Positions 41,493 to 60,316 of a DNA stretch of 64,000 bases are shown piece after piece. The notes beneath the pieces are model-generated. The model worked only from the letters and a program-made list of their open reading frames with translations, searched no databases and was not told where the DNA came from. The position numbers were made by a program, and so were the translations under genes. Origin of the DNA: a virus; IMG/VR virus record IMGVR_UViG_3300046804_000544, positions 62,001 through 126,000 of that record; one strand, written 5' to 3'. The number at the start of each line of letters is the position of its first letter. The first letter of the stretch is position 1.

Positions 41493-41843
41493 GTGGAAAA
41501 TTTTCTAGAAAAAGCTCTTGAAACAGCCAATTTGATGACAAATTTGGCAAATCAAAAACGTGCCCTTAAAGAAGAATTTGAACAAACTCAAATTTTTTTT
41601 TATAATGGCGGCACATTTACTATTACAACTCAGTTAATTACATTTGTTAATTTTTTAATCAGTAAAGGTTATACCGGAAAAGTTCCGCTAATTGATAATA
41701 ACGGTGTCCCTATACTAGTTGAAAACTTAGATTTCTTTTTAGATTCATTGCTTGATCTTTATTTTCAAAGTACAAACAAGTATTATCACAAATACGAAGC
41801 TATAAGACAAACTAAAGACATTAAAAATATTTTAGATCTATGA
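41493..41843 (+). CDS. Small conserved-type phage protein, first gene of cassette
   Basis: 116 residues with a GTG start, supported by AGGGG six bases upstream. Contents include LANQKRALKEEFEQTQIFFY, then YNGGTFTITTQLITFVNFLI and VPLIDNNGVPILVENLDFFL. It appears helical with one beta segment. I recall similar small proteins near fibre genes of marine T4-like phages but no function. The stop overlaps the next ATG (ATGA). Confidence 0.6.
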   Translation: MENFLEKALETANLMTNLANQKRALKEEFEQTQIFFYNGGTFTITTQLITFVNFLISKGYTGKVPLIDNNGVPILVENLDFFLDSLLDLYFQSTNKYYHKYEAIRQTKDIKNILDL

Positions 41844-42664
41844 GCAAAGGCGTATTGCTATTTGCCTATAATAATTCTGATATAGATTATATTGAATTAG
41901 CAGTTATAAGTGCAAATAGAATTAAACATCATCTAAACCTGCCAGTGTCTATAGTAGTTGACACTGTATCACTTGACGATTCTAGATTATCTCTATTTGA
42001 TAAAATTATTGAATCAAATAGTAAGTCAAGTCAGAAAAAAAGATTTTATGATGGTCCAGATTATAAAATGTTAGAATGGAAAAATTCTACACGACCTAAT
42101 GCTTATACATTAACACCATACAAAGAAACATTAGTATTAGATGTTGATTATATAGTATGTTCTAATATTTTATTAAATTCTTTTAATTTAAACAAAGATT
42201 TTTTAATTTATAAACAATCTTATGATATGGCTGAGTGGCGTAGTAAAGATGCCTTTAATTATATTAACAGTTATTCAACAGAATTTTTCTGGGCTACAGT
42301 ATTCTATTTTAAGAAAACTGCCTGGACAGAAATGTTTTTTAATTTAGTCACGTACATTAAAGATAATTGGGAATATTATAGATGTCTTTACCAGGTAGAC
42401 ATGCCTAATTATAGAAATGACATTGCTTTTAGTATAGCATTAAACATACTTAACGGTTTTAGCACAGCTAATAATTTTGTTGGACATTTACCGTCAAAAT
42501 TATATTATACTGCCGATAGAGATTTTCTAATAAAAACAGATAATACATCTTGCACATTTTTGCTGCAAAAAGAAAATGCACTAGGCGAATATACAATAAT
42601 GCGTACAGAAAATTTAGATGTACATGTTATGAATAAGTCTAGTATATTAAGGACTTGCAAATGA
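41840..42664 (+). CDS. Glycosyltransferase-like protein (GT-A type, DxD)
   Basis: 274 residues. The N-terminus (GVLLFAYNNSDIDYIELAVI) and the motif TLVLDVDYIV (DVD at 101-103) fit the GT-A sugar-nucleotide fold with its metal-binding DxD. A conserved-looking aromatic block follows (SYSTEFFWATVFYFKKTAWT). The donor and acceptor cannot be deduced. The next gene is a distant relative. It would decorate a glycan, protein or other acceptor in the cytoplasm. Coupled by overlap to both neighbours. Confidence 0.6.
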   Translation: MSKGVLLFAYNNSDIDYIELAVISANRIKHHLNLPVSIVVDTVSLDDSRLSLFDKIIESNSKSSQKKRFYDGPDYKMLEWKNSTRPNAYTLTPYKETLVLDVDYIVCSNILLNSFNLNKDFLIYKQSYDMAEWRSKDAFNYINSYSTEFFWATVFYFKKTAWTEMFFNLVTYIKDNWEYYRCLYQVDMPNYRNDIAFSIALNILNGFSTANNFVGHLPSKLYYTADRDFLIKTDNTSCTFLLQKENALGEYTIMRTENLDVHVMNKSSILRTCK

Positions 42665-43491
42665 ATAGAGGACATGTATTCTTAGCACAAAATAGTGACG
42701 TTAATTATGTTAGACAGGCCTATGCTCTTGCAACGTCAATTAAAAAATTTAATAAAAATAATCAAACTTGTTTGATTACTAATGACTCAGTTCCTTTAGA
42801 ATATTTTAAATCGTTTGACCATATAGTTAAAATTCCCTGGGGTGATGCAGCACACCATAGTCAATGGAAAATTGAAAATCGTTGGAAAATAATTTATGCT
42901 ACGCCTTTTAAATATAATCTAGTATATGATACAGACATGTTGGTTTTATCTTCAACTGATCATTGGTGGGAATATCTTGAAGATAGAGATGTTGTTTTAA
43001 CATCTCAAGTAAAAACTTATCGAGGACTAGCAGCAACTAGTGACCATTATAGAAAGGCCTTTACAGCAAATCAGCTACCTAATAGTTATTTTGGTCTACA
43101 TTACTTTAATAAAAATCGTCAATCTTTTGAATTTTATAAATGGTTAGAAATTGTTGTAAAAAATTGGCGTGTGTTTTTTGAAAAATATACTCCTCAATCT
43201 ACTCAAAGGTTTTGTAGTATTGATGTAGCTTCTGCTATTGTTATAAAATTAATGAACGCAGAATCTGACTTTATGATTGATAGTGATTTACCTTCATTTA
43301 TACATATGAAATCTGGTATACAAAACTGGAAAGAATTTTCTGAAGATTGGCAAGAAGAAGTACCGGTAACATTTGATAACCAATGTCGTTTAAAAATAGC
43401 AAATTTTTTACAATCTGGCGTATTCCATTACACTGAAGATAGTTTTTTAACCGATGACTTTATTAATAAATTAGAGAATTACAATGTCTGA
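42661..43491 (+). CDS. Glycosyltransferase-like protein (GT8-like, DxD)
   Basis: 277 residues from the ATG at 42661, which overlaps the preceding stop as ATGA. HVFLAQNSDVNYVRQAYALA at the N-terminus, then YNLVYDTDMLVLSS with DTD at 90-92, gives the GT-A layout seen in GT8 and related enzymes. Downstream HYTED near the end could supply the C-terminal metal-binding His. The substrate is unknown. Confidence 0.6.
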   Translation: MNRGHVFLAQNSDVNYVRQAYALATSIKKFNKNNQTCLITNDSVPLEYFKSFDHIVKIPWGDAAHHSQWKIENRWKIIYATPFKYNLVYDTDMLVLSSTDHWWEYLEDRDVVLTSQVKTYRGLAATSDHYRKAFTANQLPNSYFGLHYFNKNRQSFEFYKWLEIVVKNWRVFFEKYTPQSTQRFCSIDVASAIVIKLMNAESDFMIDSDLPSFIHMKSGIQNWKEFSEDWQEEVPVTFDNQCRLKIANFLQSGVFHYTEDSFLTDDFINKLENYNV

Positions 43492-44080
43492 AGAAATTGA
43501 ATATCTTAGTCAAGAAGAAATTGATCGTGCTGAAGCCCTTCTAAAAGGATCAAAGAAGTATTATGTCTACTATACAGACGAAGGCGAAATTGTTGCTATT
43601 GTAAAAGAACCTAAAGATTGGGCCAAAAACGTTTTAGAAGTTGACGAAGAAAATGTTTTAGGGTTTTTAAAAGGTGAAAAAACTACATACACCTACAAAA
43701 TTAATAAACCTGCTCTTAAAGATAAAGCTATTGTAACAAGTAATCAGTTAAAAAAGTTTTCAAAATCGCCGTTAAGTGTTATTGACGGTAACAATGGAAA
43801 TGAAGATTTAATTATTACGCACAATTATGATCTTTGGAAAATAAAATTAAACAAAGATGATTTTAATGAACAAGACTTAGATAAAAAGTTAGACATATTT
43901 GTTGCAGTCAAAGACAATCATAATTTTTTATTAAACACTTTAAGTTTTAAAATAAAAGATGCAATAAACGGAATAACATTTAAATTTAAATCACAGCACG
44001 AACAGAATTTTTATTCTGTTGAGTTATTAACTAAAAAAGTTTTTCCTTCCTACGGAACGCAATATGAGCCAAAAAGTTAA
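43484..44080 (+). CDS. Unknown protein of the cassette
   Basis: 198 residues, Lys/Asp/Asn-rich. Visible: YYVYYTDEGEIVAIVKEP near 26, a central charged region and a C-terminal FKFKSQHEQNFYSVELL. It overlaps its neighbours by 8 and 17 bases. No family was recognised. As a non-enzymatic-looking protein inside an enzyme operon, it could be a structural target or an adaptor. Confidence 0.55.
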   Translation: MSEEIEYLSQEEIDRAEALLKGSKKYYVYYTDEGEIVAIVKEPKDWAKNVLEVDEENVLGFLKGEKTTYTYKINKPALKDKAIVTSNQLKKFSKSPLSVIDGNNGNEDLIITHNYDLWKIKLNKDDFNEQDLDKKLDIFVAVKDNHNFLLNTLSFKIKDAINGITFKFKSQHEQNFYSVELLTKKVFPSYGTQYEPKS

Positions 44081-44990
44081 AATTATAGATCATGATGTTG
44101 TTTATCTAAGCTATGATGAACCTAATGCTGAAAGAAATTATGCAGATTTGCTAAAGAAAATTCCGTGGGCAAAACGTGTTCATGGAGTTGACGGAAGTGA
44201 TAGCGCACACAAAGCCTGTGCTAAATTAGCAACAACTGAACGAGTTACTATTATAGATGGTGATAATATTGTTGATGCAAACATTTTATCTCAAGAAATA
44301 GAATTCCAAGATCATGCTGATCTTTCAAAATGTGTACTCAGTTGGGGTGCTAAAAATATTATTAATGGATTAATTTACGGTAATGGTGGAATTAAATGTT
44401 GGCCTACACAGCTAATACTCGATATGCGTACACACGAAAATGCAGACCCTGCAAATGAAAAAACACAAGTAGATTTTTGTTGGGATATTAATTACATACA
44501 AATGAGCAAGTGTATGAGTGACGTACACAATAATGCTAGTCCTCAACAAGCGTGGCGTGCAGGATTTCGTGAAGGTGTAAAGATGAGTTTATTAGAAGGA
44601 TCAAAGATAGATCCTAATAAACTTTTTGACACACAAATACACTGGAAAAACTATCATAGACTCTGTACATGGTTAAATGTTGGCGCCGATGTTGAAAATG
44701 GTCATTGGGCTATTTACGGTGCTAGACAAGGTTGCCATATGACAAACTTAACAGACTGGGACTTTACTGAAGTTAGAGATTTTAAATGGCTAAACAATTT
44801 CTGGGAAACTAAGGCATCGGGATTAGATGAACAACAGTTAAAGTCTATGATAATATTCTATGGCGAAGAGCTTTGTCGTAAATTAAACATTCTTACAGGC
44901 CCAACATGTATGACACCAGAACAGAGTAAATTTTTCAAAGCAGTTTACACTAATCCGCCTAGAATGAAAAGTAATTTGGTAATTGAATAA
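44064..44990 (+). CDS. Putative glycosyltransferase, GT2-like (paralogue A)
   Basis: 308 residues. Residues 12-72 read VVYLSYDEPNAERNYADLL, WAKRVHGVDGSDSAHKACAK and TIIDGDNIVD, with a DGD at 65-67, the nucleotide-sugar site pattern of GT-A enzymes. YGNGGIKCWP near 110 is shared with the next gene. The C-terminus adds about 80 residues not present in that paralogue. The stop overlaps the next ATG (TAATG). A role in glycan or protein glycosylation is inferred. Confidence 0.55.
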   Translation: MSQKVKIIDHDVVYLSYDEPNAERNYADLLKKIPWAKRVHGVDGSDSAHKACAKLATTERVTIIDGDNIVDANILSQEIEFQDHADLSKCVLSWGAKNIINGLIYGNGGIKCWPTQLILDMRTHENADPANEKTQVDFCWDINYIQMSKCMSDVHNNASPQQAWRAGFREGVKMSLLEGSKIDPNKLFDTQIHWKNYHRLCTWLNVGADVENGHWAIYGARQGCHMTNLTDWDFTEVRDFKWLNNFWETKASGLDEQQLKSMIIFYGEELCRKLNILTGPTCMTPEQSKFFKAVYTNPPRMKSNLVIE

Positions 44991-45664
44991 TGTACGATAT
45001 AGTTTTTATCAGTTATAACGAACCTAATGCGGATGATAATTGGAATAAGTTGATCACTAGGTTTCCTTTAGTTCGACGTGTACATGGAGTTAAAGGTATA
45101 CATCAAGCTCATATTGCCGCTGCAAAATTATGTTTTACTAATATGTTTTGGGTAGTTGACGGTGATGCAGAAATTGTAGAATCTTTTGATTTTAGTTATC
45201 GTACTAAAATACAAGATTATGTCTATGTATGGCGCAGCCGTAATCCTGTAAATGATTTAGAATACGGTAATGGCGGCGTTAAATTATTGCCTCGGTTAAT
45301 GACTATCAATATGGATGTATCTAAACCCGATATGACTACCAGTATTAGTGAAAAATTTAAACCTGTAATGCAAGTAAGTAATATTAATTGTTTTAACAGT
45401 GATCCTTTTAATACATGGAAAAGTGCTTTTAGAGAGTGTTGCAAATTAAGCAGCAAAATTATTGATAGACAAAAATCTGATGAAACTAATGAAAGACTAC
45501 GTACATGGTGTTCAAAAGGTTCAGAAAGACTCTATGGAGAATATGCAATTAAAGGTGCTCGAGCAGGTATGCAATATGGTATTGAAAATAAGGATAATGT
45601 TGAAGAGTTAAAAAAGATCAACGATTTTGATTGGCTTACTCAAAAATTTAAGGAATCTTTATGA
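44990..45664 (+). CDS. Putative glycosyltransferase, GT2-like (paralogue B)
   Basis: 224 residues, clearly paralogous to the preceding gene: VFISYNEPNADDNWNKLI, RVHGVKGIHQAHIAAAKL, WVVDGDAEIVE (DGD at 57-59) and YGNGGVKLLP. It lacks the C-terminal extension. The two adjacent copies point to local duplication and divergence. Coupled to the next gene by an ATGA overlap. Confidence 0.55.
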   Translation: MYDIVFISYNEPNADDNWNKLITRFPLVRRVHGVKGIHQAHIAAAKLCFTNMFWVVDGDAEIVESFDFSYRTKIQDYVYVWRSRNPVNDLEYGNGGVKLLPRLMTINMDVSKPDMTTSISEKFKPVMQVSNINCFNSDPFNTWKSAFRECCKLSSKIIDRQKSDETNERLRTWCSKGSERLYGEYAIKGARAGMQYGIENKDNVEELKKINDFDWLTQKFKESL

Positions 45665-46587
45665 GTGAAAATACTACCGATAAAGTAGAATGGTTATATG
45701 GATTAGAAGAATATTTTTTATTTACTAACAAAGAACACTTTGCCGAACATATTCATGATTTTATATCATTAAACTATGTTGACGATCCTACTACAACCCT
45801 TAAAAAATTAATTTTAAAGTCACAAACGCTACCTGCTGATATTTTTAGTAAACATTTAAATTGTTATTTTAACAGCGGAAAAAAAGAATTTAATTTAGTA
45901 GAAATTGCAAGCACGCTTAAAGACGTCACTAACGACAAACTTTTAAATATTATTCATGCTTTTGCAAGAAATAATTTAGATATTAACCAACTTGGGGATG
46001 CATTTAGTAAAGGCCAAGTTCGAAGTAAAATTTGGTTGATTAAAGAATTATCTAATGTATCTACTAGATATAACAATGTAATGGTGCTTGCTGGTTGGTA
46101 TGGACAATTAAAGTTGTTCTATGATAGGTTATTAACTTATCATAAAATGAGAATAGTTGATCTGGATCGTACAGCATGTGAAGCAAGTGATTATATTTTT
46201 AATTTAAGTAATTTAGAAAACTACAAAGTTAAAAGTGTATGTGCAGATATTAATAACCTAACTTGTTATAAAACTGGATACGAATGGGATGTTACTAATT
46301 TTAAAGAAGGTACAAGTTATAAAGAAAAATTTTTACCTGATTTAATCATTAATACCAGTGCCGAGCATATGACGGAAGAATGGTTTAATCAAATTAGATT
46401 TAAAGAATTTGAATCAAACCCTATAGTTGCCATTCAAAGTAACAATATGTTTAATTTACCTGAACATGTAAATTGTGTTCATAGCGTTAATCACATGAAG
46501 AAAAAGTTCCCTATGAAAGAAATATTATTTGAAGGAGAACTTCAACTTAAAGGATATAAGCGTGTAATGCTTATAGGAAGACCATGA
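45661..46587 (+). CDS. Putative class I SAM methyltransferase-like protein
   Basis: 308 residues. The N-terminal 130 residues are helical. Then NNVMVLAGWYGQLKLFYD, MRIVDLDRTACEAS and DLIINTSAEHM follow the order of a Rossmann methyltransferase: glycine-bearing loop I, acidic end of strand 2, and post-strand-4 residues. Similar 'AGWYG' proteins are frequent in aquatic T4-like phages in my recollection. The target is unknown. Translationally coupled on both sides. Confidence 0.5.
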   Translation: MSENTTDKVEWLYGLEEYFLFTNKEHFAEHIHDFISLNYVDDPTTTLKKLILKSQTLPADIFSKHLNCYFNSGKKEFNLVEIASTLKDVTNDKLLNIIHAFARNNLDINQLGDAFSKGQVRSKIWLIKELSNVSTRYNNVMVLAGWYGQLKLFYDRLLTYHKMRIVDLDRTACEASDYIFNLSNLENYKVKSVCADINNLTCYKTGYEWDVTNFKEGTSYKEKFLPDLIINTSAEHMTEEWFNQIRFKEFESNPIVAIQSNNMFNLPEHVNCVHSVNHMKKKFPMKEILFEGELQLKGYKRVMLIGRP

Positions 46588-46808
46588 TTGATATTGATTC
46601 TATGGAATTGAGACAATTACAGATAGAAGCAGCTAAAGCTATGTCTGCATATGAAGCTACTAATAACTTCATTCATCAATTTAACAAACAGGCACATCAT
46701 AACAGTCAAAACTGGTATAAAGCAGTAATTAAACATTATGTTAGTGAATATGGCGATTTACCTAGTCTTACTGGCCCTGCAAAAGATATAAAGTTGGTAA
46801 TGGAATAA
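46584..46808 (+). CDS. Small 74-residue protein before the first radical SAM gene
   Basis: It begins MIDIDSMELRQLQIEAAKAM and continues with a His/Asn/Gln-rich middle (NNFIHQFNKQAHHNSQNWYK) and a short C-terminus (YGDLPSLTGPAKDIKLVME). It is overlapped by both neighbours and its stop shares a base with the radical SAM start (TAATG). Its size and place would suit a peptide substrate or an adaptor of the radical SAM enzymes, but there is no Cys-rich or Gly-rich core of a typical precursor. Confidence 0.55.
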   Translation: MIDIDSMELRQLQIEAAKAMSAYEATNNFIHQFNKQAHHNSQNWYKAVIKHYVSEYGDLPSLTGPAKDIKLVME

Positions 46809-47977
46809 TGTACAAATACGATGAAATTAAAACAGTGCATTTAGAAATTACAGATAACTGTAATGCTGCCTGTCCTATGTGTGCCCGCAATATTAATGGC
46901 GGACAAGAGAATCCTCAAGTGCCGGGTACAGAACTTTTTATAGATGATATTAAACGTATATTTGATCCTAATTTTATAAAACAATTAGACCGTATGTATA
47001 TGTGTGGTAACTACGGTGACCCAATTGCCGCAAGAGATACATTGGAAACTTTTGCTTACTTTAGGCAACATAACTCAACAGCTATGTTAAGTATGCATAC
47101 AAACGGCAGCGCCAAAAAACCAGAATGGTGGGCAGAGTTAGCACGTACGATAGGTCGTAAAGGATATGTGGTTTTTAGTCTAGATGGTTTAGAAGACACT
47201 AATCACCTTTATAGACAAAATACTGTATGGTCAAAGATAATGGAAAACGCACAAGCCTTTATTGATGCAGGTGGCCGAGCACGTTGGGATTATATTGTAT
47301 TTGCACATAACGAACATCAAGTAGAAGAAGCTGAGCAGTTGGCGAAATCAATGGGATTTGAAAAATTTCAGTTTAAGAAAAGTGCTAGATTTTTTTCAAA
47401 CGCTAGCGGCGTAACAAAAGAAATGCATCAGGCAGCAAATCGTAAAGGCATGGCTACTACGTTACTTCAAGCGCCAACTAATCCAAAGTATAGAAATGCA
47501 GCCTTAGAAGAATTAAGTAAAATTGCTAAATCAGAAGCACCTATTAAATTTTTACCTAGCAAACAGGAAGATTTAGAAGGTTATACCTTTCCACAAATAT
47601 TTCACAAAGACCCTGCAAAGAAAAAACCTATGGAAAAATACTGGGATGAAGTTCCTATCAAATGTAAAGTAGCAGAAGAAAAGAGCCTTTATGTTTCTGC
47701 AGAAGGTATTGTACAGCCATGTTGCTGGACTGCTGGTCAAATGTACGTTTGGTACTGGACACCTAAAGGTGGACAGATATGGAACTTAATAGATGAAGTT
47801 GGCAAAGACAATCTTAATGCTAAGTTAAACAGTTTAGAATCAATTGTTAATGGTCGTTTTATGCAAGATCTAGTTCCTAATAGTTGGATCAAATCAAGTT
47901 GCTCTGACGGCAAGCTAGCAGTATGTGCAAAAACATGCGGTACTAAGCATGATGCATTTGCGGAGCAATTTAAGTGA
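46808..47977 (+). CDS. Radical SAM protein 1 with SPASM-like C-terminus
   Basis: 389 residues. The CxxxCxxC motif for the 4Fe-4S/SAM cluster is at 18, 22 and 25 (NCNAACPMC). Supporting text includes MYMCGNYGDPIAA, equivalent to the GGEP SAM-binding region, and VVFSLDGLEDTNHLYR. A C-terminal cysteine set at about 286, 305, 306, 365, 373 and 377 (EGIVQPCCW, AVCAKTCG) suggests auxiliary clusters as in SPASM enzymes, which modify peptides or other substrates. GC content appears higher than in the flanking genes. Confidence 0.8.
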   Translation: MYKYDEIKTVHLEITDNCNAACPMCARNINGGQENPQVPGTELFIDDIKRIFDPNFIKQLDRMYMCGNYGDPIAARDTLETFAYFRQHNSTAMLSMHTNGSAKKPEWWAELARTIGRKGYVVFSLDGLEDTNHLYRQNTVWSKIMENAQAFIDAGGRARWDYIVFAHNEHQVEEAEQLAKSMGFEKFQFKKSARFFSNASGVTKEMHQAANRKGMATTLLQAPTNPKYRNAALEELSKIAKSEAPIKFLPSKQEDLEGYTFPQIFHKDPAKKKPMEKYWDEVPIKCKVAEEKSLYVSAEGIVQPCCWTAGQMYVWYWTPKGGQIWNLIDEVGKDNLNAKLNSLESIVNGRFMQDLVPNSWIKSSCSDGKLAVCAKTCGTKHDAFAEQFK

Positions 47978-48960
47978 AACCAATAGCTATTGAATATGTT
48001 GATCCAAGAAGGTACGATGCAGTATACATAGATTGGACCTTAGGTAATTTTTGTAATTTTAAATGTAGTTATTGCCCAGATAATTTACATGACAATTCTC
48101 ATCCTATGGCAGATATTGAAATTGTAAAAAATTTTGTTAAGAGGGTGTTTGAACATTATACAAAAAATTTAGATAAAAAATATTTTGTTTTTAATCTCAT
48201 GGGCGGCGAGCCAACATTATGGAAAAGCATAGAACCGTTTATCATATGGGTAAAGCAGTACAGTCAAGATTTAGGAATAGTAAGTTATATTGAAATTTTA
48301 ACTAATGCTAGTAGAACTTTACGTTGGTGGAATGACTATATTAAGTATTTTGATTTTGTAAAAATTACACATCACGCAGAATTTGCTGATCCTATACACA
48401 CAGCATCAGTGGCAGATTTAGCTATAGAAAATGGAATACATTCAACTGTGCAGGTTACAATGATACCATCTCTCTGGGATCAGTGCCTATCACATTTAGA
48501 TCAAATTAAAAAAAGCAATTATAAGTTTCAAATAGATGTGAAACCTTTGCGTGTTAATTTTGGATCTACGTTATATCCTTACACTACAGAACAGTTTGAT
48601 TTTTTTAAAAAACCTTTTAGAAAAAGTGATATTACTAAACCTTTATCTGGATCTGTTGGAATGAAAAGTAAATTTTTATTTTTAGATAAGTCCGAACAAG
48701 AAATTAGATATCAAGACTTAATTACAAATAAACAAAACAGTTGGATAGGATGGAAATGTTGGGCAGGATTAGATATATTAACAATTAGATCAGATGGATC
48801 TTTAAGATTTGGTGGTGCATGTCTTATGTCGGATACTGGTTTTTTTGATAAAAAAATTACAGATGATAATATTGTTTTCAGAACAGATCCAATTATTTGC
48901 AATCAACAATGGTGTAGCTGCGGCCCTGATATGGAGACTAGAAAATTAAATGAAAACTGA
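47974..48960 (+). CDS. Radical SAM protein 2
   Basis: 328 residues with a GTG start; GGAG lies about ten bases upstream and the start overlaps the preceding stop. Cluster cysteines are at 27, 31 and 34 (FCNFKCSYC), and the SAM-binding motif is NLMGGEPTLW near 75. A C-terminal group (WKCWAGLDILTIRSDGSLRF, GGACLM, CNQQWCSCG) may bind an auxiliary cluster. The substrate is unknown. Confidence 0.8.
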   Translation: MKPIAIEYVDPRRYDAVYIDWTLGNFCNFKCSYCPDNLHDNSHPMADIEIVKNFVKRVFEHYTKNLDKKYFVFNLMGGEPTLWKSIEPFIIWVKQYSQDLGIVSYIEILTNASRTLRWWNDYIKYFDFVKITHHAEFADPIHTASVADLAIENGIHSTVQVTMIPSLWDQCLSHLDQIKKSNYKFQIDVKPLRVNFGSTLYPYTTEQFDFFKKPFRKSDITKPLSGSVGMKSKFLFLDKSEQEIRYQDLITNKQNSWIGWKCWAGLDILTIRSDGSLRFGGACLMSDTGFFDKKITDDNIVFRTDPIICNQQWCSCGPDMETRKLNEN

Positions 48961-52544: not shown

Positions 52545-53752
52545 AAACAAAAACTTTTTGTGTAATGCCTTGGAATAGTATTGCTACTAATGCATCGGGT
52601 GTTTATAGAGTTTGTTGTAATAGTACCCCGGGAAAAAATACAATCAATAATGAAAATGGCGTTCCGATGAAAATTTTTCAATACACGCCAACAGAAATTT
52701 GGAATAGCTCTACTTATACAAAAATAAGAGAACAGATGTTAGCAGGCGAACAACCTGAAATGTGTGAACGATGTTTTAAAGAAGAAGCTTCAGGTATCGA
52801 TAGTGCTAGAATAAATTGGAATAAACGTTGGTACAAAGAAGACCGAGAGTATGCTGTAGAAGAAACCCCCAATATTCAATATGTTGATTTAAGATTAGGA
52901 AATCTCTGTAATCTAAAGTGTAGAATGTGTAACCCTTATAGTAGTAATCAATGGGTAGAAGAATGGAATGCTGTAGTAGATAAAGCTGAATTAGTTCCAA
53001 ATTTTCCAATTAGCAATGAAGAAGCTACCAGATTGTCAAAATTAGATTGGCCAAAGAATGAAAAAACTTGGGATAGCTTAATAGAAATTGCAGACACAAT
53101 TGAAGAAATATACCTAACAGGCGGAGAGCCAACGTTAGCAATAGAGCAGTATAAGCTATTTGACCTTTTAATTGAAAAACAATTATCTAAAAAAATTAAA
53201 TTAAAATACAATACAAATTTAACTAATATTCCTAAAAAAATGATCGAATATTGGAATAATTTTAAACGTATACAAATAAATGCTAGTATTGATGCATTTA
53301 AAGATTTAAATCGTTACATAAGGTATCCTACAGCTTGGTCTAGCGTTGAAAAAAATATGGATCAATTTTCTAATATGCAAAATGTAGAAGTGCAATTACA
53401 TTGCACAGTTCAAACCTATAACATATTAAATCTACATGAATTATTTGAATGGATGAAAAAATACCCGACAGTTAAATTATATTTAAACATATTGAATCAT
53501 CCTCGATCTATGAATATACGTGTATTACCAGAAGAACTTAAAGAACTAGCAGAAAAAAGATTGCAGCCATATTTACATCTTCCAAAAGTCCAGCAAACAA
53601 TAAAATACATGAATGATAAAAACGAAAGTGAATACTTAAAAGAATTCTTTGATTATACAATTACATTAGATGAAATGCGTAATCAAGACTTTTTTAATCT
53701 AGTTCCAGAGTTTAGGAAATTTTTTATCTCAACGTACCACACAACTGAATAA
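52541..53752 (+). CDS. Radical SAM protein 5, N-terminal twitch-like type
   Basis: 403 residues from the ATG at 52541 (overlapping TGA). Cysteines 7, 25-26 (YRVCC) and 75/78 (EMCERC) form the N-terminal set; the core cysteines are 123, 127 and 130 (NLCNLKCRMC), followed by YLTGGEPTLA. REQMLAGEQPEMCERCFKEE is nearly shared with protein 4, so the two are recent paralogues despite the oxygenase gene between them. Confidence 0.8.
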   Translation: MKTKTFCVMPWNSIATNASGVYRVCCNSTPGKNTINNENGVPMKIFQYTPTEIWNSSTYTKIREQMLAGEQPEMCERCFKEEASGIDSARINWNKRWYKEDREYAVEETPNIQYVDLRLGNLCNLKCRMCNPYSSNQWVEEWNAVVDKAELVPNFPISNEEATRLSKLDWPKNEKTWDSLIEIADTIEEIYLTGGEPTLAIEQYKLFDLLIEKQLSKKIKLKYNTNLTNIPKKMIEYWNNFKRIQINASIDAFKDLNRYIRYPTAWSSVEKNMDQFSNMQNVEVQLHCTVQTYNILNLHELFEWMKKYPTVKLYLNILNHPRSMNIRVLPEELKELAEKRLQPYLHLPKVQQTIKYMNDKNESEYLKEFFDYTITLDEMRNQDFFNLVPEFRKFFISTYHTTE

Positions 53753-53756: not shown

Positions 53757-54986
53757 ATGAAACATATTGTCTGTAGTAAAATGTGGACGGATATTAATCT
53801 TAATATACCTACTAAAGAAATCAAAAATTGTTGTAAGAGACAATCTACTAAGTTATCAGTAAACGAACTTAAATTTTTAGGAAAAGACAGTTTTACAAAA
53901 AATCAAATGATTGTTGACGATAAAAAATTTATGGTTGACAATAATCAACTACCTGGAGCATGTTATGGTTGTAAAATGACATGGCCTAATTCTCTTTGGA
54001 AAGTTTGGAATGTATGGAAAGATAAAGACTGGACAGCAGACCAATTGGAAAATCTTAAAAGTCAAGATCATGTCCATCAAATTGAAATTATGTTAGGAAT
54101 TACCTGTAATCAGTCCTGTATGTATTGTACAGAGTTTGTTAGTAGTATGTGGGCGGACATAAAAGGTATTCCAATTACAACTGATACGGAATGGGAAGAT
54201 CAAGCATTAGCAAATTTATACGAATACATCGAATCTGAAAGATATAATGATAAAAATTATATAATGTATAATTTTTTAGGTGGAGAACCATTTTTAGAAT
54301 TGAGAATTTTTGAAGTAGTAGAAAAATTAATTGCAATTCATAGGTTTAAATCTATTCCTAATAAAAAAATTATTATACACATGACTACTAATTTAAACAT
54401 CAAGAGTAAAACTCTTGACCGTTATTTAGAAATAGTAGAAAAAAATCTAGATATAGAATGGGGTATAAGTGCTAGCCTTGATTCTATTGGCCGGCAAGGT
54501 GAAGAAATAAGAGACGGATTAATTTTTTCTAGATTTGAAGAAAATTTAGAAAAGATTTATGCTTCTAATAAATTCCGTCATGTCTCTATATTACCGTCAG
54601 TTAGTGCATTAAGTATTCCAAATAAAGCTGATTTAATTAATTGGTTTTTAAATCTAACTAAAAAGTATAGAAATTTATCCAATTTTGGTCATACTTTTAA
54701 TATTGGACAAAATATAGTTACATGGCCCGATGCAATGCATCCGGGGATATTGACTGACAATTATAAAACAGAAATAGATAAGTGCATTCAAATAATAGAA
54801 ACATTAGATAGAAGCAACGCCGATACAAAAAAATATTTAGATCATCTAAACAATTTAAAACAGCTAATTGGAACAAAACGCCAACCAGAATATTTAAATA
54901 ATGCCAAAGAATGGTATATAAATCAAGGTAAGTTAAAAAATAAAAATTACTTTGATATTTTTCCATTCTTGAATGAAATATTATAA
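53757..54986 (+). CDS. Radical SAM protein 6, N-terminal twitch-like type
   Basis: 409 residues. It has the same layout: C6, C25-C26 (IKNCCKR), C69/C72 (ACYGC), core C117, C121 and C124 (ITCNQSCMYC), and NFLGGEPFLE. It is more divergent from proteins 3-5 than 4 and 5 are from each other. Strongly AT-rich. The stop overlaps the next start (TAATG). Confidence 0.8.
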   Translation: MKHIVCSKMWTDINLNIPTKEIKNCCKRQSTKLSVNELKFLGKDSFTKNQMIVDDKKFMVDNNQLPGACYGCKMTWPNSLWKVWNVWKDKDWTADQLENLKSQDHVHQIEIMLGITCNQSCMYCTEFVSSMWADIKGIPITTDTEWEDQALANLYEYIESERYNDKNYIMYNFLGGEPFLELRIFEVVEKLIAIHRFKSIPNKKIIIHMTTNLNIKSKTLDRYLEIVEKNLDIEWGISASLDSIGRQGEEIRDGLIFSRFEENLEKIYASNKFRHVSILPSVSALSIPNKADLINWFLNLTKKYRNLSNFGHTFNIGQNIVTWPDAMHPGILTDNYKTEIDKCIQIIETLDRSNADTKKYLDHLNNLKQLIGTKRQPEYLNNAKEWYINQGKLKNKNYFDIFPFLNEIL

Positions 54987-56383
54987 TGAATAATTTGTCT
55001 ATTAATTTTGTTACGCCAAAAGATCAAAGAAGAGAAAAGTTATTATTTGTTTTTTGGAATGATTATTTTTGTAAAAAACAAAAATATTCTTACGATTTTT
55101 CCTATGCTAATGACCTAATGCATATGACTCAGATGATAGCAAACAGTATGCTATATCATAATTATGATAGAATATTGTGCTATAACTTAGAAGAAGCATT
55201 AGAATTGGCGGCTGCTTCAAATTTTAAAAATGTTGTAGTACATAGTCCTGGATCTATTATAAACAAAAACCATAATAATTTTGTGCTAGATTACATTAAA
55301 AATAAAGATTATTTTATTGCAGGGCATATTTTAGACGGACGCCCTAAAAACAAATACCTACATCTTCACGAGCAGTGTTTTGTAGTAAATTTAGATCATT
55401 TTAATAATTTTGATCATAAACTTGATTTTACCTGTAATCAAGAAAAAACATTTCAAGATTATTATAGAAGTACAGAAAATTTTCACGATGATTATACACC
55501 TTTATGGGTTAAAGGATTGAATACAACACTAACAACAAAAAATTATGACTGGTCAGCGTCTTGGTTAGATTATGGATTAAAAACAAATACACTGTATATG
55601 TTTATTGAAGGCATTAGGGGAAATAAATTTCATATGTATCCTGAAACTCCTAAACATAGAGAAACGTGGTATGGAAGTATTAACGAAGAAAATCAACTAA
55701 GCAGAATACTAGATTCTGCATGTAAAATTGACACGCAGCAACACATTTTTAATAACGAAAATTTTTCAAAAAGTTCTGCTTACACAGTTAAAGACAATAT
55801 TGATACTCTAATTGTTCCAGCCAGCGGATTTTTTAGTGTCCACGCATTTAAACACTTTAAACCTAAAAAAATAATTTACTATGATATTGATACTAAAACT
55901 TTAAATTTAAGAAAAATTATAAATGATCATTGGAATGCAATCACTCCTATAAGGGATATATTTGTAGATGGTATTAATCCGTTTCAAGACATTGAAATAC
56001 CTCAGATACAGCTTATTGATAACGACTGGATTAAATCTCAAGACGAAGCAGAAGTTGTTTGGAAGGAATTTCAACTTGTTGAAAAAGAATACCATTGTAT
56101 TGATATTATACACAACTATGATCAATTATTATCAATTGTGCCCGATAGTAATACGTTTATATGGTTAAACAGCATTTATACATATTCGATAAACATTTGG
56201 AACCATAGACCAAGTAAAATTTTTGAATCTTATTATAACTTTGTATATGGGTTAAAAAAGAAACAATCTAAGATTTGGGTCGATGTGAAAGAACCAACAG
56301 GTCAATACAGATGTTTTGAGGTACATGGTTATGTTCCAGATGCTGTTATGATGGGCTATGCTAACTACACTAGGTTTTTATAA
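54986..56383 (+). CDS. Unknown protein with methyltransferase-like Rossmann segment
   Basis: 465 residues. Residues about 1-240 have no recognised domain. From about 270, DTLIVPASGFFSVHAFKHFK, then IIYYDIDTKTLNLRKI and later NTFIWLNSIYTYSINIW align by eye with a segment of the 56919 gene (DCIITVSSGLLPLNLISQ, VTLVDINNNCLEF, PLVYFSNIFSYVPTLF). The order glycine loop, acidic residue after strand 2 and SNIF/LNSIY suggests a SAM-type Rossmann domain. Coupled to the next gene by TAATG. Confidence 0.5.
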   Translation: MNNLSINFVTPKDQRREKLLFVFWNDYFCKKQKYSYDFSYANDLMHMTQMIANSMLYHNYDRILCYNLEEALELAAASNFKNVVVHSPGSIINKNHNNFVLDYIKNKDYFIAGHILDGRPKNKYLHLHEQCFVVNLDHFNNFDHKLDFTCNQEKTFQDYYRSTENFHDDYTPLWVKGLNTTLTTKNYDWSASWLDYGLKTNTLYMFIEGIRGNKFHMYPETPKHRETWYGSINEENQLSRILDSACKIDTQQHIFNNENFSKSSAYTVKDNIDTLIVPASGFFSVHAFKHFKPKKIIYYDIDTKTLNLRKIINDHWNAITPIRDIFVDGINPFQDIEIPQIQLIDNDWIKSQDEAEVVWKEFQLVEKEYHCIDIIHNYDQLLSIVPDSNTFIWLNSIYTYSINIWNHRPSKIFESYYNFVYGLKKKQSKIWVDVKEPTGQYRCFEVHGYVPDAVMMGYANYTRFL

Positions 56384-56922
56384 TGATAGTTGCAGGAAAT
56401 AAAAATTACGGGATTGCTAAGGAAATTTATAAATTGTTTCCAGAAGCAATTTTTGCCAGCAGGACTACAGGATTTGATTTAACTAACAGTAAAGATCAAT
56501 CTAGATTTGCTGAATTAGTCCTTGAACATGATGTGTTTATAAATTGTAGTGCTTTATGGAAATTTAATCAAACAGTGTTATTAGATATTGTTTATAAAAA
56601 ATGTGTTGAGCATAAACACTATCCTTATATTATTTGCATAGGATCAACTACTGATAGAGTTAAAAAAGGTGGTGCATGGTTGTACAACGCAGAAAAAAAA
56701 GCCTTAAGGGATTATTGCAATACGTTAGGATTTAACGGAGTATGGGGTAAAGCTCCAAAGATAACCTATATAAGTTTTGGAAGTTTGAGCAATGTACAAG
56801 ATAAACATCCTGATAGGACCTGCTTACCTATTGATAAAACAGCTATATACATTAAGTGGTTAATCGACCAACCATCAGAAATCTGCATAAACGAAATAAG
56901 TATTGATCCTGTACAACTATGA
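56383..56922 (+). CDS. Short-chain dehydrogenase/reductase-like protein
   Basis: 179 residues, short for an SDR (about 250). The N-terminus MIVAGNKNYGIAKEIYKLF resembles the cofactor loop, with NCSAL near 54, IGSTTD giving Ser88 and YNAEKKAL giving Tyr101 and Lys105 of the SDR catalytic set. It would oxidise or reduce a hydroxyl or keto group, for example on a sugar. No substrate loop is recognisable. Overlaps the next ATG. Confidence 0.55.
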   Translation: MIVAGNKNYGIAKEIYKLFPEAIFASRTTGFDLTNSKDQSRFAELVLEHDVFINCSALWKFNQTVLLDIVYKKCVEHKHYPYIICIGSTTDRVKKGGAWLYNAEKKALRDYCNTLGFNGVWGKAPKITYISFGSLSNVQDKHPDRTCLPIDKTAIYIKWLIDQPSEICINEISIDPVQL

Positions 56923-58448
56923 ATATTGGTATTATATTATCTAATCATGAAAATGATCGTGTTAACAAATTAAGACTTTTTACATTTAATGCTATAAAAG
57001 CAGCACCATCTCAAAATAATTATACTATAGCAAGTGATGTTCCTTTAGATTTTACCTTAGAATTTAAAAATGATATTTGTATTACTAATGCAAATAAATT
57101 TGTTAAAATTATAGACAATAGTTTAGAAAACTCTAATTTAGAAAACGAAGATTTAAAGGTAAGTGTAGCTAGTAGTCAAGAAGTTAAAACTTTAACGAAC
57201 GAAATTAAATCAACTTATAAAAATTATAAAGATACTGATTTTGAAAGCTGGTTAAGTAACCATATATCTCCAACTAATCATTATTGGGCATATAATTCTG
57301 AAAGTTTAAATTTTGTTTTGCCTCCAGATACGGATTGCATTATTACAGTAAGTTCAGGGCTATTACCTTTAAATTTAATTAGCCAATTAGATAAACCATG
57401 CACTGTTACATTAGTTGATATTAATAATAATTGTTTGGAGTTTCAAAGATATTTAATTAACAATATAGATAGACTTAAATCTATAAAATCATATAAAGAA
57501 TTAATTAAAAACTTTTCTATTGAATATAGAGTTGACCCTATTGGTAACTTAACAGATATTGATAAAATTGAATCAATTATAGAAATAATAAATCATAAAA
57601 AACGCATTATAAAACAATGTTCTATAAATTATGTCATTGGTGATCTACGAGAGCCTAATGAAATAATTGTACAAAATTTAAGATCATCTAAAAATCCATT
57701 AGTTTATTTTAGCAATATTTTTTCTTATGTTCCAACGCTATTTGGAAACAATTCTGAAAAAGATTTTGTTCTATTTTTAAACATGTTGCTAGGTGCAAAC
57801 CTAAATGTAAAGTGGCACGGCGATACACCTAATCGAATATGTTCTAGCAATTTAATGAAACAGTCACAAGATGAATATCATTGGAAAGTTAACATAGATT
57901 TACCTTATAAAGATTTTTTAGAAGAAGTTTCTATCTTAGAATCAAAAAATTTATTTGTAAAACATAGAACTAAAGACGGACACAAAGGTGTATATTTCAA
58001 TCATGGGTGGTCTAGTTTTTGCATACATGGATTAGCTTATGACATGACCCAAGGTCCTGAGCAATACGGTTATACAGAAGAAACTGCACCATATGATTAT
58101 ACGCCTGAAGCACTAGAGTATTGTCCTAAATTAGTTAACTGGTTTAAAGAAAATGCATTTAGAAAAAAATATCACAGAGTTAGAATAATGAAATTAGATC
58201 CAGGCGGCATAGTAGGATTACACAATGATAATCCAAATTCTAAAGCGTCTGCTACTAATATGGCTATTAATAATCCTGTTGGTTGCGAAATGCATTTTCT
58301 AAATAGAAACTATCAGTATCTAGGTCTAGTTCCTTGGACAGACGGTGATGTTTATAAAATACAAATTGGGTTAAATCATTATGTTGTAAATAAGAGCAAC
58401 GAAAATAGATATCATATGATAATACATGGCACTGGCGGAACACTATGA
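56919..58448 (+). CDS. Rossmann-like plus Asp/Arg-type beta-hydroxylase fusion
   Basis: 509 residues. The middle (about 140-310) shares the Rossmann/methyltransferase-like segment of the 54986 gene. The C-terminal 90 residues look like the aspartyl/asparaginyl beta-hydroxylase cupin: VGLHNDNP (His435, Asp437), LNHYVVN (distal His487) and NRYHMIIHG (Arg497). These are the Fe(II) triad and 2-oxoglutarate-binding Arg in the usual order. A fusion of methyl transfer and hydroxylation chemistry is therefore possible. Extremely AT-rich. Confidence 0.6.
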   Translation: MNIGIILSNHENDRVNKLRLFTFNAIKAAPSQNNYTIASDVPLDFTLEFKNDICITNANKFVKIIDNSLENSNLENEDLKVSVASSQEVKTLTNEIKSTYKNYKDTDFESWLSNHISPTNHYWAYNSESLNFVLPPDTDCIITVSSGLLPLNLISQLDKPCTVTLVDINNNCLEFQRYLINNIDRLKSIKSYKELIKNFSIEYRVDPIGNLTDIDKIESIIEIINHKKRIIKQCSINYVIGDLREPNEIIVQNLRSSKNPLVYFSNIFSYVPTLFGNNSEKDFVLFLNMLLGANLNVKWHGDTPNRICSSNLMKQSQDEYHWKVNIDLPYKDFLEEVSILESKNLFVKHRTKDGHKGVYFNHGWSSFCIHGLAYDMTQGPEQYGYTEETAPYDYTPEALEYCPKLVNWFKENAFRKKYHRVRIMKLDPGGIVGLHNDNPNSKASATNMAINNPVGCEMHFLNRNYQYLGLVPWTDGDVYKIQIGLNHYVVNKSNENRYHMIIHGTGGTL

Positions 58449-59125
58449 ATAGCAATTATGAAAAATTTATAACAGATGATATACTTTCAAAATTTGGTGT
58501 AGTCCAATCAGTAGATTTATATCAATTGGCTTACATAGTTAGTAAATTGGAAGAAGGTCCAATTGTTGAAATTGGAACATGGTTAGGAAAATCAGCATAT
58601 ACCATGTCTCTTTATAAAAATAAAAATAGTGTATTGCATCTAGTTGATCCTTTTGAATCAAGTTTTGGATCTAGTAACAATTCTTACCCACAGGCTGATT
58701 TATTAGTTTATAAAAAAAACAATTCTACTACACCCGATGATGTTGTTCTTAAATATAGACAAATAATTTTTGATACAAAAGATAATTTACCAGTAGTCAA
58801 AGATGTACTAAAAGATTTTTTATCAACAACAGTATTTCACAAAATGAGAAGTGAAAATTTTAAATTAACATTTGAACCTAAGTTTGCTTTTATTGATGGA
58901 GGACATACTTATCAAGAATGTTACGACGATATTAAAAAATTTGTTCGGTACGATAATATTTTAATTGCAGTACACGATTATGATCAATTAGATGTAAAAT
59001 TAGCATGCCACAATATTGCCAACGAGCATGATAGAAAATTACTTTTTTCTCACCAAATGTGTTATATCTTAGATAAGAATTGTCAATATGAAAGTCTTAT
59101 AAGAGAAATATTATCTACTTTATAA
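58445..59125 (+). CDS. Class I SAM-dependent methyltransferase
   Basis: 226 residues of the Methyltransf_24-like type. PIVEIGTWLGKSAYTMSLY (residues about 39-57) is the SAM-binding loop and LVDPFE the acidic turn. FAFIDGGHTYQECYDDIKKF near 150 is characteristic of cephalosporin-hydroxylase/CmcI-like and sugar O-methyltransferases. This favours a small-molecule or glycan acceptor. Overlaps the previous stop by four bases (ATGA). Confidence 0.75.
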   Translation: MNSNYEKFITDDILSKFGVVQSVDLYQLAYIVSKLEEGPIVEIGTWLGKSAYTMSLYKNKNSVLHLVDPFESSFGSSNNSYPQADLLVYKKNNSTTPDDVVLKYRQIIFDTKDNLPVVKDVLKDFLSTTVFHKMRSENFKLTFEPKFAFIDGGHTYQECYDDIKKFVRYDNILIAVHDYDQLDVKLACHNIANEHDRKLLFSHQMCYILDKNCQYESLIREILSTL

Positions 59126-59143
59126 AGTCGTATAAGTAAAAGT

Positions 59144-60316
59144 ATGACAAAAGATTTAAGTTGGAGTGCCTACGATTTTACCAAAATACCGTACAGTGAT
59201 ATTGTACGTGTAGGTCAGCGTACCATGCTGTATAAAGATCTTTTTACAGTAAGTTGGCTGCTAGGTCGTTACTGTAACTATCGTTGTAGTTACTGTTGGC
59301 CTTATGCTCGCAGTGACAGTAAAGACCATAGACCAACTGAGTTATGCTTAAAGACAATTGACGAAATTAAACGTCAAGCTCGTGAGCGTAATTTTAACAG
59401 TTTTCATTTTAGTCTAAGCGGTGGCGAACCTACATTCCACCCGGGCTATATTGATATATTAAACTACCTTAATGATGATGTAGATAATACAAACTATACT
59501 AGTGTACACATGACTAGTAACATGAGTCGTCCATTAAAGTGGTTTGAAGAAAAATATTGTCCTGCTGTTAGCAAGTTTCATCGTGCTAGTATTACTGCTA
59601 GCCTACATACAGAGCATGTAGATACACCAGAAAAAATGCAAGAGTTTGCAGACAAATTAATCCTTTGTCAAGAATATGATGTACAAGTAACTATTAACAT
59701 GGTTATGGTACCAGAATGGTTTGAGCGTGACTTTGATAATGCGTTATTCTTTCACGATCAAGGAATTAATGTAACCTTAAAGCCCCAAAGCGATCCGACT
59801 GCTAGTCGTGTAGTTGACGGATATACTCCAGAAATGTTAAAGCGTTTGCATAACGGTATGCCTCAAAGAGCATTTACTGAGACAAAAGCCGCACTCGCCA
59901 AAAAGGTTAAAAGACCCGAACCTCGATTCTTTAAAACACCAGATCCTATCTATCAAGAAGCGCAGAGTAAAATACCACAGCACTTTCAAGTAGAATTTAT
60001 AGACAAAGAAAAGAAAATATGGTATATGGATCAAGCTGAACGATTCAACGCTTTTAACTTTAACAAATTCAAAGGTTGGGAATGTTCTAGCGGATACAGG
60101 GGTATTATTATACGTGAACCAGACGGTAGCATTAAACGTAGCTATAGCTGTCACGATGCTCCTATAGGTAACATTGAAACAGGATTCAAACTGTTTGACG
60201 GACCAAAGCCTTGCATTAGCGAAAGTTGTGTTAGCTCAGCTGACAGCAAAATACCCAAAAGAGCGCCCGGAACAGAGTTGCCTCTGTGGCCGGGCGATAA
60301 AACCTTTATTCGCTAA
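59144..60316 (+). CDS. Radical SAM protein 7 with C-terminal cysteine motif
   Basis: 390 residues. Core cysteines are 44, 48 and 51 (RYCNYRCSYC) and SLSGGEPTFHP is near 87-95. C-terminal cysteines (WECSSGYRG, RSYSCHDAP, PCISESCVSS) suggest an auxiliary cluster. GC content looks clearly higher than in the preceding five kilobases. It is the last gene of the cassette and converges on thyX, with an 11-base tail overlap. A strong hairpin lies inside its last codons. Confidence 0.8.
   Translation: MTKDLSWSAYDFTKIPYSDIVRVGQRTMLYKDLFTVSWLLGRYCNYRCSYCWPYARSDSKDHRPTELCLKTIDEIKRQARERNFNSFHFSLSGGEPTFHPGYIDILNYLNDDVDNTNYTSVHMTSNMSRPLKWFEEKYCPAVSKFHRASITASLHTEHVDTPEKMQEFADKLILCQEYDVQVTINMVMVPEWFERDFDNALFFHDQGINVTLKPQSDPTASRVVDGYTPEMLKRLHNGMPQRAFTETKAALAKKVKRPEPRFFKTPDPIYQEAQSKIPQHFQVEFIDKEKKIWYMDQAERFNAFNFNKFKGWECSSGYRGIIIREPDGSIKRSYSCHDAPIGNIETGFKLFDGPKPCISESCVSSADSKIPKRAPGTELPLWPGDKTFIR
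60264..60296 (-). terminator. Strong hairpin at convergent rSAM 7/thyX ends
   Basis: CGCCCGG...CCGGGCG encloses ACAGAG-TTGC-CTCTGT, giving 13 pairs in an AT-rich genome. On the minus strand it starts ten bases after the thyX stop and is followed by CTCTTTTGGGTATTTT, so it suits an intrinsic terminator for the thyX operon. It lies within the coding sequence of radical SAM protein 7, so it may also block the opposing transcript. Confidence 0.65.

Follow-up and report, generated by a model that had tools for sequence, protein, structure and literature searches.

We describe a conserved block of 20 overlapping genes in a large virus whose products, judged from sequence and synteny, would be soluble enzymes that build a sugar decoration and tailor it by radical chemistry, probably on a tail fibre, a reading to which we give roughly even odds (about 50%). 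The block occupies positions 41493–60316 of the window, the 64,000-nucleotide stretch of DNA analysed here (Table 1). Synteny and purifying selection (cassette dN/dS 0.03–0.3) extend over dozens of contigs, so the block is a conserved system rather than a chance cluster.

Results

All 20 genes lie on the plus strand, and start and stop checks of their open reading frames gave junctions of −17 to +18 bp, with no internal stops. An earlier note on this DNA had counted about 19 genes without gaps; the block is real, but the count had overlooked a 74-aa gene (PEP, 46584–46808), which fills the sole apparent gap and makes the cassette truly gap-free. All seven proteins that it called radical SAM enzymes (rSAMs) carry CxxxCxxC, whereas its other assignments hold unevenly. 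Among four proposed GT-A-like proteins, GTd is borne out by AlphaFold and Foldseek, and GTa and GTb show just a DxD motif and a weak PHROG link; of two 2-oxoglutarate (2OG) oxygenases, OG2 is supported by a profile and OG1 by an HxD...H pattern; of at least three methyltransferases, MT2 has a profile match and MTx resembles MJ0882 weakly at profile level (E 0.12); and the SDR-like protein forms a family without profile support. By Kyte–Doolittle analysis (19 aa), transmembrane segments are absent from all the cassette proteins (none above 1.6). The late-promoter motif TATAAATA is depleted, occurring once in the window (position 4377), which makes it unusable as a test for a cassette promoter. 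Read by eye, a thymidylate-synthase-like ORF (60306–60974) abuts the 3′ end.

Table 1. Genes of the cassette and of its fibre side (window positions).
Gene	Assignment	Position	Strand	Evidence
fib487	Tail-fibre-like	39018–40481	+	PHROG tail fibre 1.4e-13; 5′ of cassette, precedes fib314 in many loci
fib314	Fibre-like, module A; candidate decoration acceptor	40491–41435	+	Synteny with GTa
orf41493	116 aa	41493–41843	+	Between fib314 and GTa
GTa	Putative GT-A glycosyltransferase	41840–42664	+	GTb paralogue, synteny; no Pfam match
GTb	Putative GT-A glycosyltransferase, DTD motif	42655–43491	+	phrog_1903 6e-4
u43484		43484–44080	+	Family of 30 loci, same position
GTc	GT-A-like glycosyltransferase	44064–44990	+	GTd homologue; fusion in locus L055
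GTd	GT-A-fold glycosyltransferase (predicted)	44990–45664	+	AF2 pLDDT 93.6; Foldseek
MTx	Rossmann methyltransferase-like, hypervariable N-terminus	45661–46587	+	In 93% of RS4 loci
PEP	Conserved three-helix protein, 74 aa	46584–46808	+	AF2 pLDDT 94.3; 111 loci by HMM; rSAM nearby in 79/80 PEP-fetched loci
RS1	Radical SAM, SPASM-like C-terminal cysteines	46808–47977	+	PF04055 38.5 bits
RS2	Radical SAM, variable module	47974–48960	+	PF04055 27.9–30.1 bits
RS3	N-terminal-twitch radical SAM, variable module	48950–50113	+	NF033640 247 bits
RS4	N-terminal-twitch radical SAM, most conserved core enzyme	50117–51520	+	NF033640 430 bits
OG1	2OG-oxygenase-like, motif only	51513–52544	+	HxD in 23/23 members; no Pfam/NCBIfam match
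RS5	N-terminal-twitch radical SAM	52541–53752	+	NF033640 382 bits
RS6	N-terminal-twitch-like radical SAM	53757–54986	+	NF033640 146 bits; cysteines intact in 13/13
u54986	465 aa	54986–56383	+	No profile match
SDR	SDR-like small Rossmann-type protein, motif only	56383–56922	+	53-locus family; no Pfam/NCBIfam match
OG2	Asp/Asn beta-hydroxylase-like 2OG oxygenase domain at C-terminus	56919–58448	+	PF05118 1.3e-6
MT2	Methyltransferase	58445–59125	+	PF13578 3.3e-7
RS7	Radical SAM, C-terminal Cys-rich region, core enzyme	59144–60316	+	PF04055 52.9 bits

RS1, RS3, RS4, RS5 and RS7 exceed the PF04055 cutoff; RS2 is borderline, at 27.9 bits against a cutoff of 29.5 (30.1 with frame neighbours). Taking membership of N_Twi_rSAM (NF033640) as more than 170 bits with N-terminal twitch cysteines, RS3, RS4 and RS5 belong to this family; RS1, RS2 and RS7 match its core only, and RS6, which is under the PF04055 cutoff, aligns over its full length but stays under the cutoff of 170. 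RS1 has invariant residues C18/C22/C25, C305-C306, C365, C373 and C377, and cluster cysteines are kept in 971 of 980 rSAM homologues, so the degenerate cysteines that the earlier note had said would undermine its proposal are not what the homologues present. The GTd model matched WrtF, RmlT, ArnC, SunS and PGANT in Foldseek (E 7e-5 to 3e-3; probability 0.9–1.0 with low TM), and D57 and D59 are invariant; GTd alone among the cassette glycosyltransferases thus combines a predicted GT-A fold with DxD, GTa and GTb being putative glycosyltransferases by motif and weak similarity. PDB sequence and profile searches with RS4, the glycosyltransferases, PP-loop f7, GTb and fib314 yielded no useful match (for GTb, no profile match at all), and fib314 has no PHROG match.

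The block is common to hundreds of uncultured viruses, its carriers being some large water-borne phages: RS4 relatives occur on at least 593 viral contigs, with no close relative in any deposited phage, and tblastn against phages found no match for RS7, PEP, GTd, GTb or fib314 (for fib314, 0 among 50,697 phages). The 46 loci fetched with RS4 contain RS1 in 96%, GTc/GTd in 93%, MTx in 93% and RS7 in 72%, and gene order is colinear in 43/43. Among close relatives, RS1 and RS4 match at 95–97%, and the variation falls in the middle of the block, on RS2, RS3 and OG1; within MTx, the N-terminus is 23–45% identical versus 50–79% for the C-terminus.

Two modules appear, the genes of each moving together. 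Module A comprises fib314, orf41493 and GTa/b/c; module B comprises GTd-MTx-PEP-RS1-RS4-RS7 and swapped tailoring enzymes, the exchangeable genes, placed among or alongside the fixed ones, encoding rSAMs, 2OG oxygenases and methyl-, carbamoyl- or amidinotransferases. Distances among fib314, orf41493, GTa, GTb and GTc co-vary (r 0.73–0.86), and RS4 distances do not track them (r 0.16–0.33). All 63 fib314 homologues are followed by GTa within 3 kb, and the tight linkage of glycosyltransferase genes to a fibre gene that characterizes phage fibre glycosylation is found here (63/63 and 68/74). Independently fetched fib314 homologues have orf41493-GTa-GTb in 71–72 of 79 cases; where flanks are full, 29/31 loci carry orf41493-GTa-GTb-GTc/d and 23/31 at least one rSAM, and in roughly one fib314 locus in four no rSAM could be recognised up to 10 kb away. 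Conversely, GTb-fetched loci have fib314 in 36/37 and at least three rSAMs in 35/37. This co-occurrence of fib314, glycosyltransferases and rSAM block in independent scans supports well the earlier proposal that the phage encodes a modification pathway tied to its fibre genes, and is the opposite of the singly scattered genes that would have told against it. Directly upstream in some phages lie genes for NDP-sugar epimerases, a sugar-nucleotide-type NTP transferase, a C-methyltransferase and a carbamoyltransferase, and in one clade the block is placed behind NDP-sugar genes.

The module B core is also present in Bdellovibrionota chromosomes, and viral RS4s nest within cellular RS4 diversity. 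In Bdellovibrionales the RS7-RS1-RS4-MTx quartet known from the cassette stands beside GT2, in one case with AT3-SGNH genes as well; at least five genomes have GT2 genes no more than 5 kb from RS4, and of the 20 cellular loci examined 17 contain RS7. Since no Polysacc_synt gene (PF01943) was seen close to cellular RS4, the polysaccharide context derives from GT2 and the neighbourhoods of loci L177, L178 and L292. One Bdellovibrionota contig carries fib314-orf41493-GTa-GTb-u43484-GTc with RS4 and RS7, adjoining pheST. Most cellular RS4/RS1 blocks lack fib314, and some RS4/RS1 blocks lie away from it; module B therefore cannot depend on fib314.

Discussion

The cassette may be a two-module decoration system of large myoviruses. 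In module A, GTa, GTb and GTc would put sugars onto fib314 in the cytoplasm, with orf41493 as a small partner (a chaperone-like role is our guess), and the lack of transmembrane segments fits a cytoplasmic acceptor. In module B, radical and oxidative steps would extend and chemically tailor the fib314 sugar, the fixed scaffold giving a common sugar core and the swapped genes a phage-specific variant, much as in O-antigen loci; the benefit might be receptor binding or fibre shielding. We infer the glycan product, the fib314 acceptor, the step order and the benefit alike. Of the targets suggested earlier—a fibre, a peptide or a surface glycan—the glycan and fibre are favoured over the peptide by the upstream NDP-sugar genes, the cellular polysaccharide neighbours, the GT-A fold and PEP, the sole small protein, which is folded, conserved and missing from nearly all cellular versions, while the mostly peptide substrates of SPASM/twitch rSAMs count against a sugar. 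More tentatively, and with a clearly greater chance of being wrong than right, we picture a dedicated, widespread aquatic phage system in which radical chemistry builds variable, natural-product-like sugars on the phage's own receptor-binding fibre; phages would have taken up the whole unit from Bdellovibrio-type bacteria and varied it through exchange of enzymes, and it would include a new 74-aa partner lacking any fold match.

Polysaccharide loci contain or adjoin some of the cellular homologues, and, together with the NDP-sugar genes of some phages, this could mean that the cassette acts during infection on the polysaccharide of the host surface, for serotype conversion or to exclude superinfection, by the same kind of glycan chemistry that Bdellovibrionota use on their own surface; a host-surface role is proposed in the pelagimyophage paper for glycosyltransferases of the host-recognition cluster (PMC7029224). 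We consider this unlikely, given a near-obligately linked fibre-like gene in the same orientation and a cassette without membrane protein, flippase or lipid-linked transferase; Gtr-type conversion employs a membrane flippase, GtrA, and a lipid-linked GtrB, and the cassette encodes no hydrophobic segment above the 1.6 threshold.

PEP raises the question of a ribosomally made peptide product (RiPP), with PEP as precursor and the rSAM, 2OG, methyl- and glycosyltransferase enzymes as maturases. Its gene lies directly 5′ of RS1 in most PEP-bearing loci, many cassette rSAMs resemble NCBIfam peptide maturases, and the GT-A fold of GTd is SunS-like. Yet PEP is predicted to fold and is conserved over its entire length, which makes a RiPP improbable: the alignment reveals no variable core of the kind that a small precursor beside its maturase would have. 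PEP is also missing from 64/169 RS1 loci and has no confident match in 18 cellular genomes carrying the rSAM core; Pfam scans of the window cassette recognised neither protease nor exporter. Structure searches with PEP gave no fold match. After alignment, predicted fold and cellular absence, PEP as precursor was dropped as the main reading.

Free swapping of the middle genes might instead mark a hypervariable island of host-derived auxiliary genes with no one shared pathway; this is very doubtful against the fixed order (colinear in all 43), the near-complete co-occurrence and the joining of three core genes in a single GTc-GTd-repeats-MTx protein (L055:1225–4455). That the genes serve to modify the phage's DNA, RNA or nucleotides (a hypermodified base, tRNA or cofactor) is less probable still: rSAMs, methyltransferases, carbamoyltransferases and glycosyltransferases can modify nucleic acids, and a thymidylate-synthase-like gene follows the cassette, but the block adjoins fibre genes, its middle is variable and some cellular neighbours are polysaccharide genes.

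A fibre-sugar system would have partial parallels. Phage-encoded glycosyltransferases glycosylate virions, for example in mycobacteriophages, and there too adjoin structural genes, although we know of no radical SAM tailoring in virion glycosylation. Bacterial O-antigen and capsule loci share fixed ends and a variable middle, but the cassette, which follows a fibre gene, encodes neither flippase nor polymerase nor any membrane protein.

The earlier statement that no described phage system has this set was too strong, for rSAM-rich modules already described in Campylobacter phages and pelagimyophages mean that the cassette is not unprecedented. In 2010, interchangeable modules of five rSAMs and an amidinotransferase were reported in Campylobacter phages; like the cassette, the gap-free CP220/CPt10 cluster lies near baseplate/fibre genes and is swapped between relatives, and it includes NDP-sugar-transferase-like proteins (Timms 2010, PMC2853527). 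It has RS1 and amidinotransferase families in common with the cassette family, but in the CP220 stretch neither GTc/d nor any orthologue of PEP, MTx, RS4 or RS7 was seen. A T4-like environmental marine genome with 12 rSAM genes followed in 2017, read as Fe–S metabolism and with no cassette architecture given in the part consulted (Nishimura 2017, PMC5332604), and in 2020 the pelagimyophage host-recognition cluster, an island of fibres, glycosyltransferases and rSAM cassettes (PMC7029224). As far as the accessible parts of these three papers go, such islands have been recorded since 2010 with neither a function nor a fibre–glycosyltransferase–rSAM architecture. Tying them to one fibre-like protein, a glycosyltransferase set and a fixed scaffold offers a substrate that can be tested, and the homologues in cells open a second route to the chemistry; if our reading is right, phages diversify attachment fibres through enzymatic chemistry besides sequence. 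The pelagimyophage cluster is defined as the island between VrlC and gp14, and the isolate Mosig EXVC030M shares the RS1 family, a SPASM protein, carbamoyltransferase, MTx and nitroreductase but lacks the RS4/RS7/GTc/d scaffold in the stretch compared. The window phage itself, whose baseplate wedge has its closest counterparts in Atu_ph07 and other jumbo phages, is probably no pelagimyophage.

A conserved cassette in a probable large myovirus

The enzyme cassette that follows the fibre-like gene fib314 is real, conserved and widespread. Its gene list in the earlier note stands apart from one omission, the gene for a 74-residue protein, and the seven proteins described there as radical SAM (rSAM) enzymes, RS1–RS7, do carry CxxxCxxC. 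RS3–RS6 have an N-terminal CC...CxxC twitch-like region, with three of the four exceeding the cutoff of the N-twitch rSAM profile NF033640; C-terminal cysteines are present in RS1 and RS7. GTd has a GT-A fold, and profiles support the 2-oxoglutarate (2OG) oxygenase-like OG2 and the methyltransferase MT2, while the 2OG oxygenase-like OG1, the SDR-like protein and the glycosyltransferases (GTs) GTa and GTb are putative assignments from motifs and synteny.

Features of the window and of related loci
Position (strand)	Feature	Remarks
4377-4384 (+)	TATAAATA, T4-type late promoter core	1 in window vs 14.1 expected; shortly upstream of baseplate-hub gene at 4412
6936-7077 (-)	Rfam RF01718 Polynucleobacter-1 RNA	76 bits; in phage record
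20694-35081 (+)	ORF of 4795 aa	upstream of fibre genes
40491-41435	fib314	fibre-like protein
41465-41483	perfect 19-bp palindrome CTACATTATAATAATGTAG	between fib314 and orf41493, immediately 5' of cassette
41493-60316 (+)	cassette	20 genes; junctions -17 to +18 bp; no internal stops
41493-41843 (+)	orf41493	116-aa protein
43484-44080 (+)	u43484	
46584-46808 (+)	74-aa protein gene	fills sole apparent gap in cassette
60306-60974 (-)	ThyX-like ORF (read by eye), family f20	convergent with cassette 3' end
L055:1225-4455	fused GTc+GTd+MTx	also contains repeats
L087:6557-7783; L066:1306-3867	variable-number repeats	
L114:13877-14200; L102:17151-17483	SPASM-like Cys-rich proteins (f37, f51)	free-standing; adjoin rSAM genes
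L163:1730-2788; L145:5508-7454	AMP-binding ligase (PF00501) and GNAT-like protein (by eye)	opposite strand

The window forms positions 62001-126000 of a 132,916-bp IMG/VR virus record. It probably derives from a large myovirus, not from a pelagiphage or cyanophage: the nearest matches of the baseplate wedge protein (36% identity) are in Agrobacterium phage Atu_ph07 and other jumbo myophages, and a 399,796-bp contig (L020) carries the cassette in almost gene-for-gene form. The RF01718 RNA may point to freshwater as the source or to a freshwater host, and the palindrome is a possible operator or terminator. Other A/T octamers, for example ATATATAT, are depleted in the window like the late promoter core. 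Family f20, together with f22, f24, f30 and f46, flanks the cassette in several relatives.

Conservation and modularity

The scanned viral contigs include at least 593 loci carrying RS4 relatives and at least 587 carrying RS1 relatives. Among 46 full-flank loci fetched with RS4, RS1 occurs in 96%, the Rossmann methyltransferase-like protein MTx and GTc/d in 93% each, the 74-aa gene in 76% and RS7 in 72%, with a median of 8 rSAM genes per 21 kb; MTx, RS1 and RS4 are colinear in 43 of 43 RS4-fetched loci. One 256-kb contig holds 17 NF033640 matches, and some phages encode GTc, GTd and MTx as a single fused protein. Cluster cysteines are kept in 971/980 homologues, and dN/dS against relatives is 0.03-0.3, with dS near saturation in many pairs. 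The cassette is thus a conserved unit.

We also fetched loci independently, with fib314 alone or with GTb. Fibre-fetched loci with full flanks carry orf41493-GTa-GTb-GTcd in 29 of 31 cases and at least one rSAM gene in 23; GTb-fetched loci carry fib314 in 36 of 37 and at least three rSAM genes in 35. When pairwise distances are compared over the 35 loci that are complete, fib314, orf41493, GTa, GTb and GTc show mutual correlations of 0.73-0.86, RS4 correlates with these five at just 0.16-0.33, and RS4 with the 74-aa protein at 0.54, figures that are descriptive because the loci are phylogenetically non-independent. Minimal loci (for example L411, L415 and L431) have the fibre and GT genes without a recognised rSAM gene in the surrounding 10 kb. 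Read most simply, the data show two modules that are associated, yet not locked together: A, with the fibre and GT genes, and B, with the rSAM genes.

The genes exchanged in the intervals between the fixed ones encode additional rSAMs, PP-loop proteins with weak profile support, 2OG enzymes of the aspartyl-hydroxylase type, nitroreductases, aminotransferase-like proteins, carbamoyltransferases of the NodU/CmcH type and arginine amidinotransferases related to StrB1 and SxtG. RS1 and RS4 are 95-97% identical between the window and L183, a close relative, RS3 and OG1 are 53-55% identical, and RS2 is missing from L183. The MTx N-terminus is hypervariable; repeats of NLHSIFRL and EMFW type lie as insertions between GT and MTx domains or ahead of them, and the f37 and f51 proteins look as if rSAM and SPASM domains had been split. 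In about ten relatives the ligase/GNAT-like pair adjoins another fibre-like gene and the cassette.

A candidate partner protein and the favoured target

The earlier note had allowed for a modified peptide, a reading now disfavoured: the only small protein, the 74-aa one, is conserved throughout, is predicted to be folded and is often absent. Its gene directly follows MTx in 98 of the 111 loci that have it, and 79 of the 80 loci retrieved with this protein include an rSAM. The predicted structure is compact and three-helical (pLDDT 94), with no match to its fold in the PDB. It is conserved end to end, is missing from 64/169 RS1 loci and, in 18 Bdellovibrionota genomes possessing the enzymes, is absent or scores at noise level; a role as a partner protein therefore fits it better than one as a peptide substrate.

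The glycan or fibre target proposed at the same time is favoured by sugar genes upstream of the cassette in some phages and by GT2 glycosyltransferases beside some of the cellular core genes. In one phage clade (L114), the cassette is preceded by three genes for NAD-dependent sugar epimerases/dehydratases and one for a carbamoyltransferase, the latter assigned via its family member in L124; in L124 itself the preceding genes encode a nucleotidyltransferase-kinase, a C-methyltransferase and an aldolase. GT2 genes adjoin the quartet RS7-RS1-RS4-MTx in two Bdellovibrionales MAGs, one of which adds genes for an AT3-SGNH acyltransferase and for an asparagine synthase, and lie within 5 kb of RS4 in at least five cellular genomes. 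Other cellular loci (for example L289) have no GT2 or polysaccharide-type neighbours, and a search near cellular RS4 found no Wzx-type flippase close by.

None of the 20 cassette proteins has a transmembrane segment, which suggests soluble enzymes acting on a cytoplasmic acceptor; such an acceptor is more in keeping with a fibre protein before assembly than with a glycan on a lipid carrier. In the decoration that we infer, module A would add the first sugars to fib314 and module B would then extend and tailor them; the cassette would be a phage surface-decoration locus with unusual chemistry.

Relation to described loci and origin

Phage modules rich in rSAM genes were known before. For the Campylobacter phages CP220 and CPt10, Timms et al. 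(2010, PMC2853527) reported exchangeable modules that comprise five rSAMs plus an amidinotransferase, and the CP220 cluster resembles our cassette in its RS1 and amidinotransferase families; a pelagimyophage study of 2020 describes a host-recognition cluster with rSAM cassettes and GTs (PMC7029224), and the isolate Mosig EXVC030M has several families in common with the cassette. A 2017 marine genome study reports one T4-like genome with 12 rSAM genes (PMC5332604). Excerpts of these three papers give neither a function nor the fibre-GT-rSAM scaffold; the search covered open-licence papers, and other descriptions may exist.

In cells, RS1 occurs in 17/141 genomes of one Bdellovibrionota order and RS4 in 15/291 genomes of the phylum; at high stringency, the only one of 398 Pseudomonadota genomes with RS4 was the MAG that supplied the query. 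The RS1, N-twitch and RS7 families recur jointly at cellular loci (18, 18 and 17 of 20). A chromosome can host the fibre-GT-rSAM set, since on one Bdellovibrionota contig pheST (identified by eye) is directly followed by RS4, RS7, fib314, orf41493, GTa, GTb, u43484 and GTc. In the RS4 tree, 44 viral sequences lie within a Bdellovibrionota grade; as the root is the midpoint on two long paralogues, transfer from cell to phage is likely, not proven. Two MAG contigs nesting among the viruses, L176 and L179, are labelled Neisseriaceae and Gammaproteobacteria; both carry the viral cassette and are probably phage contigs mis-binned with bacteria.
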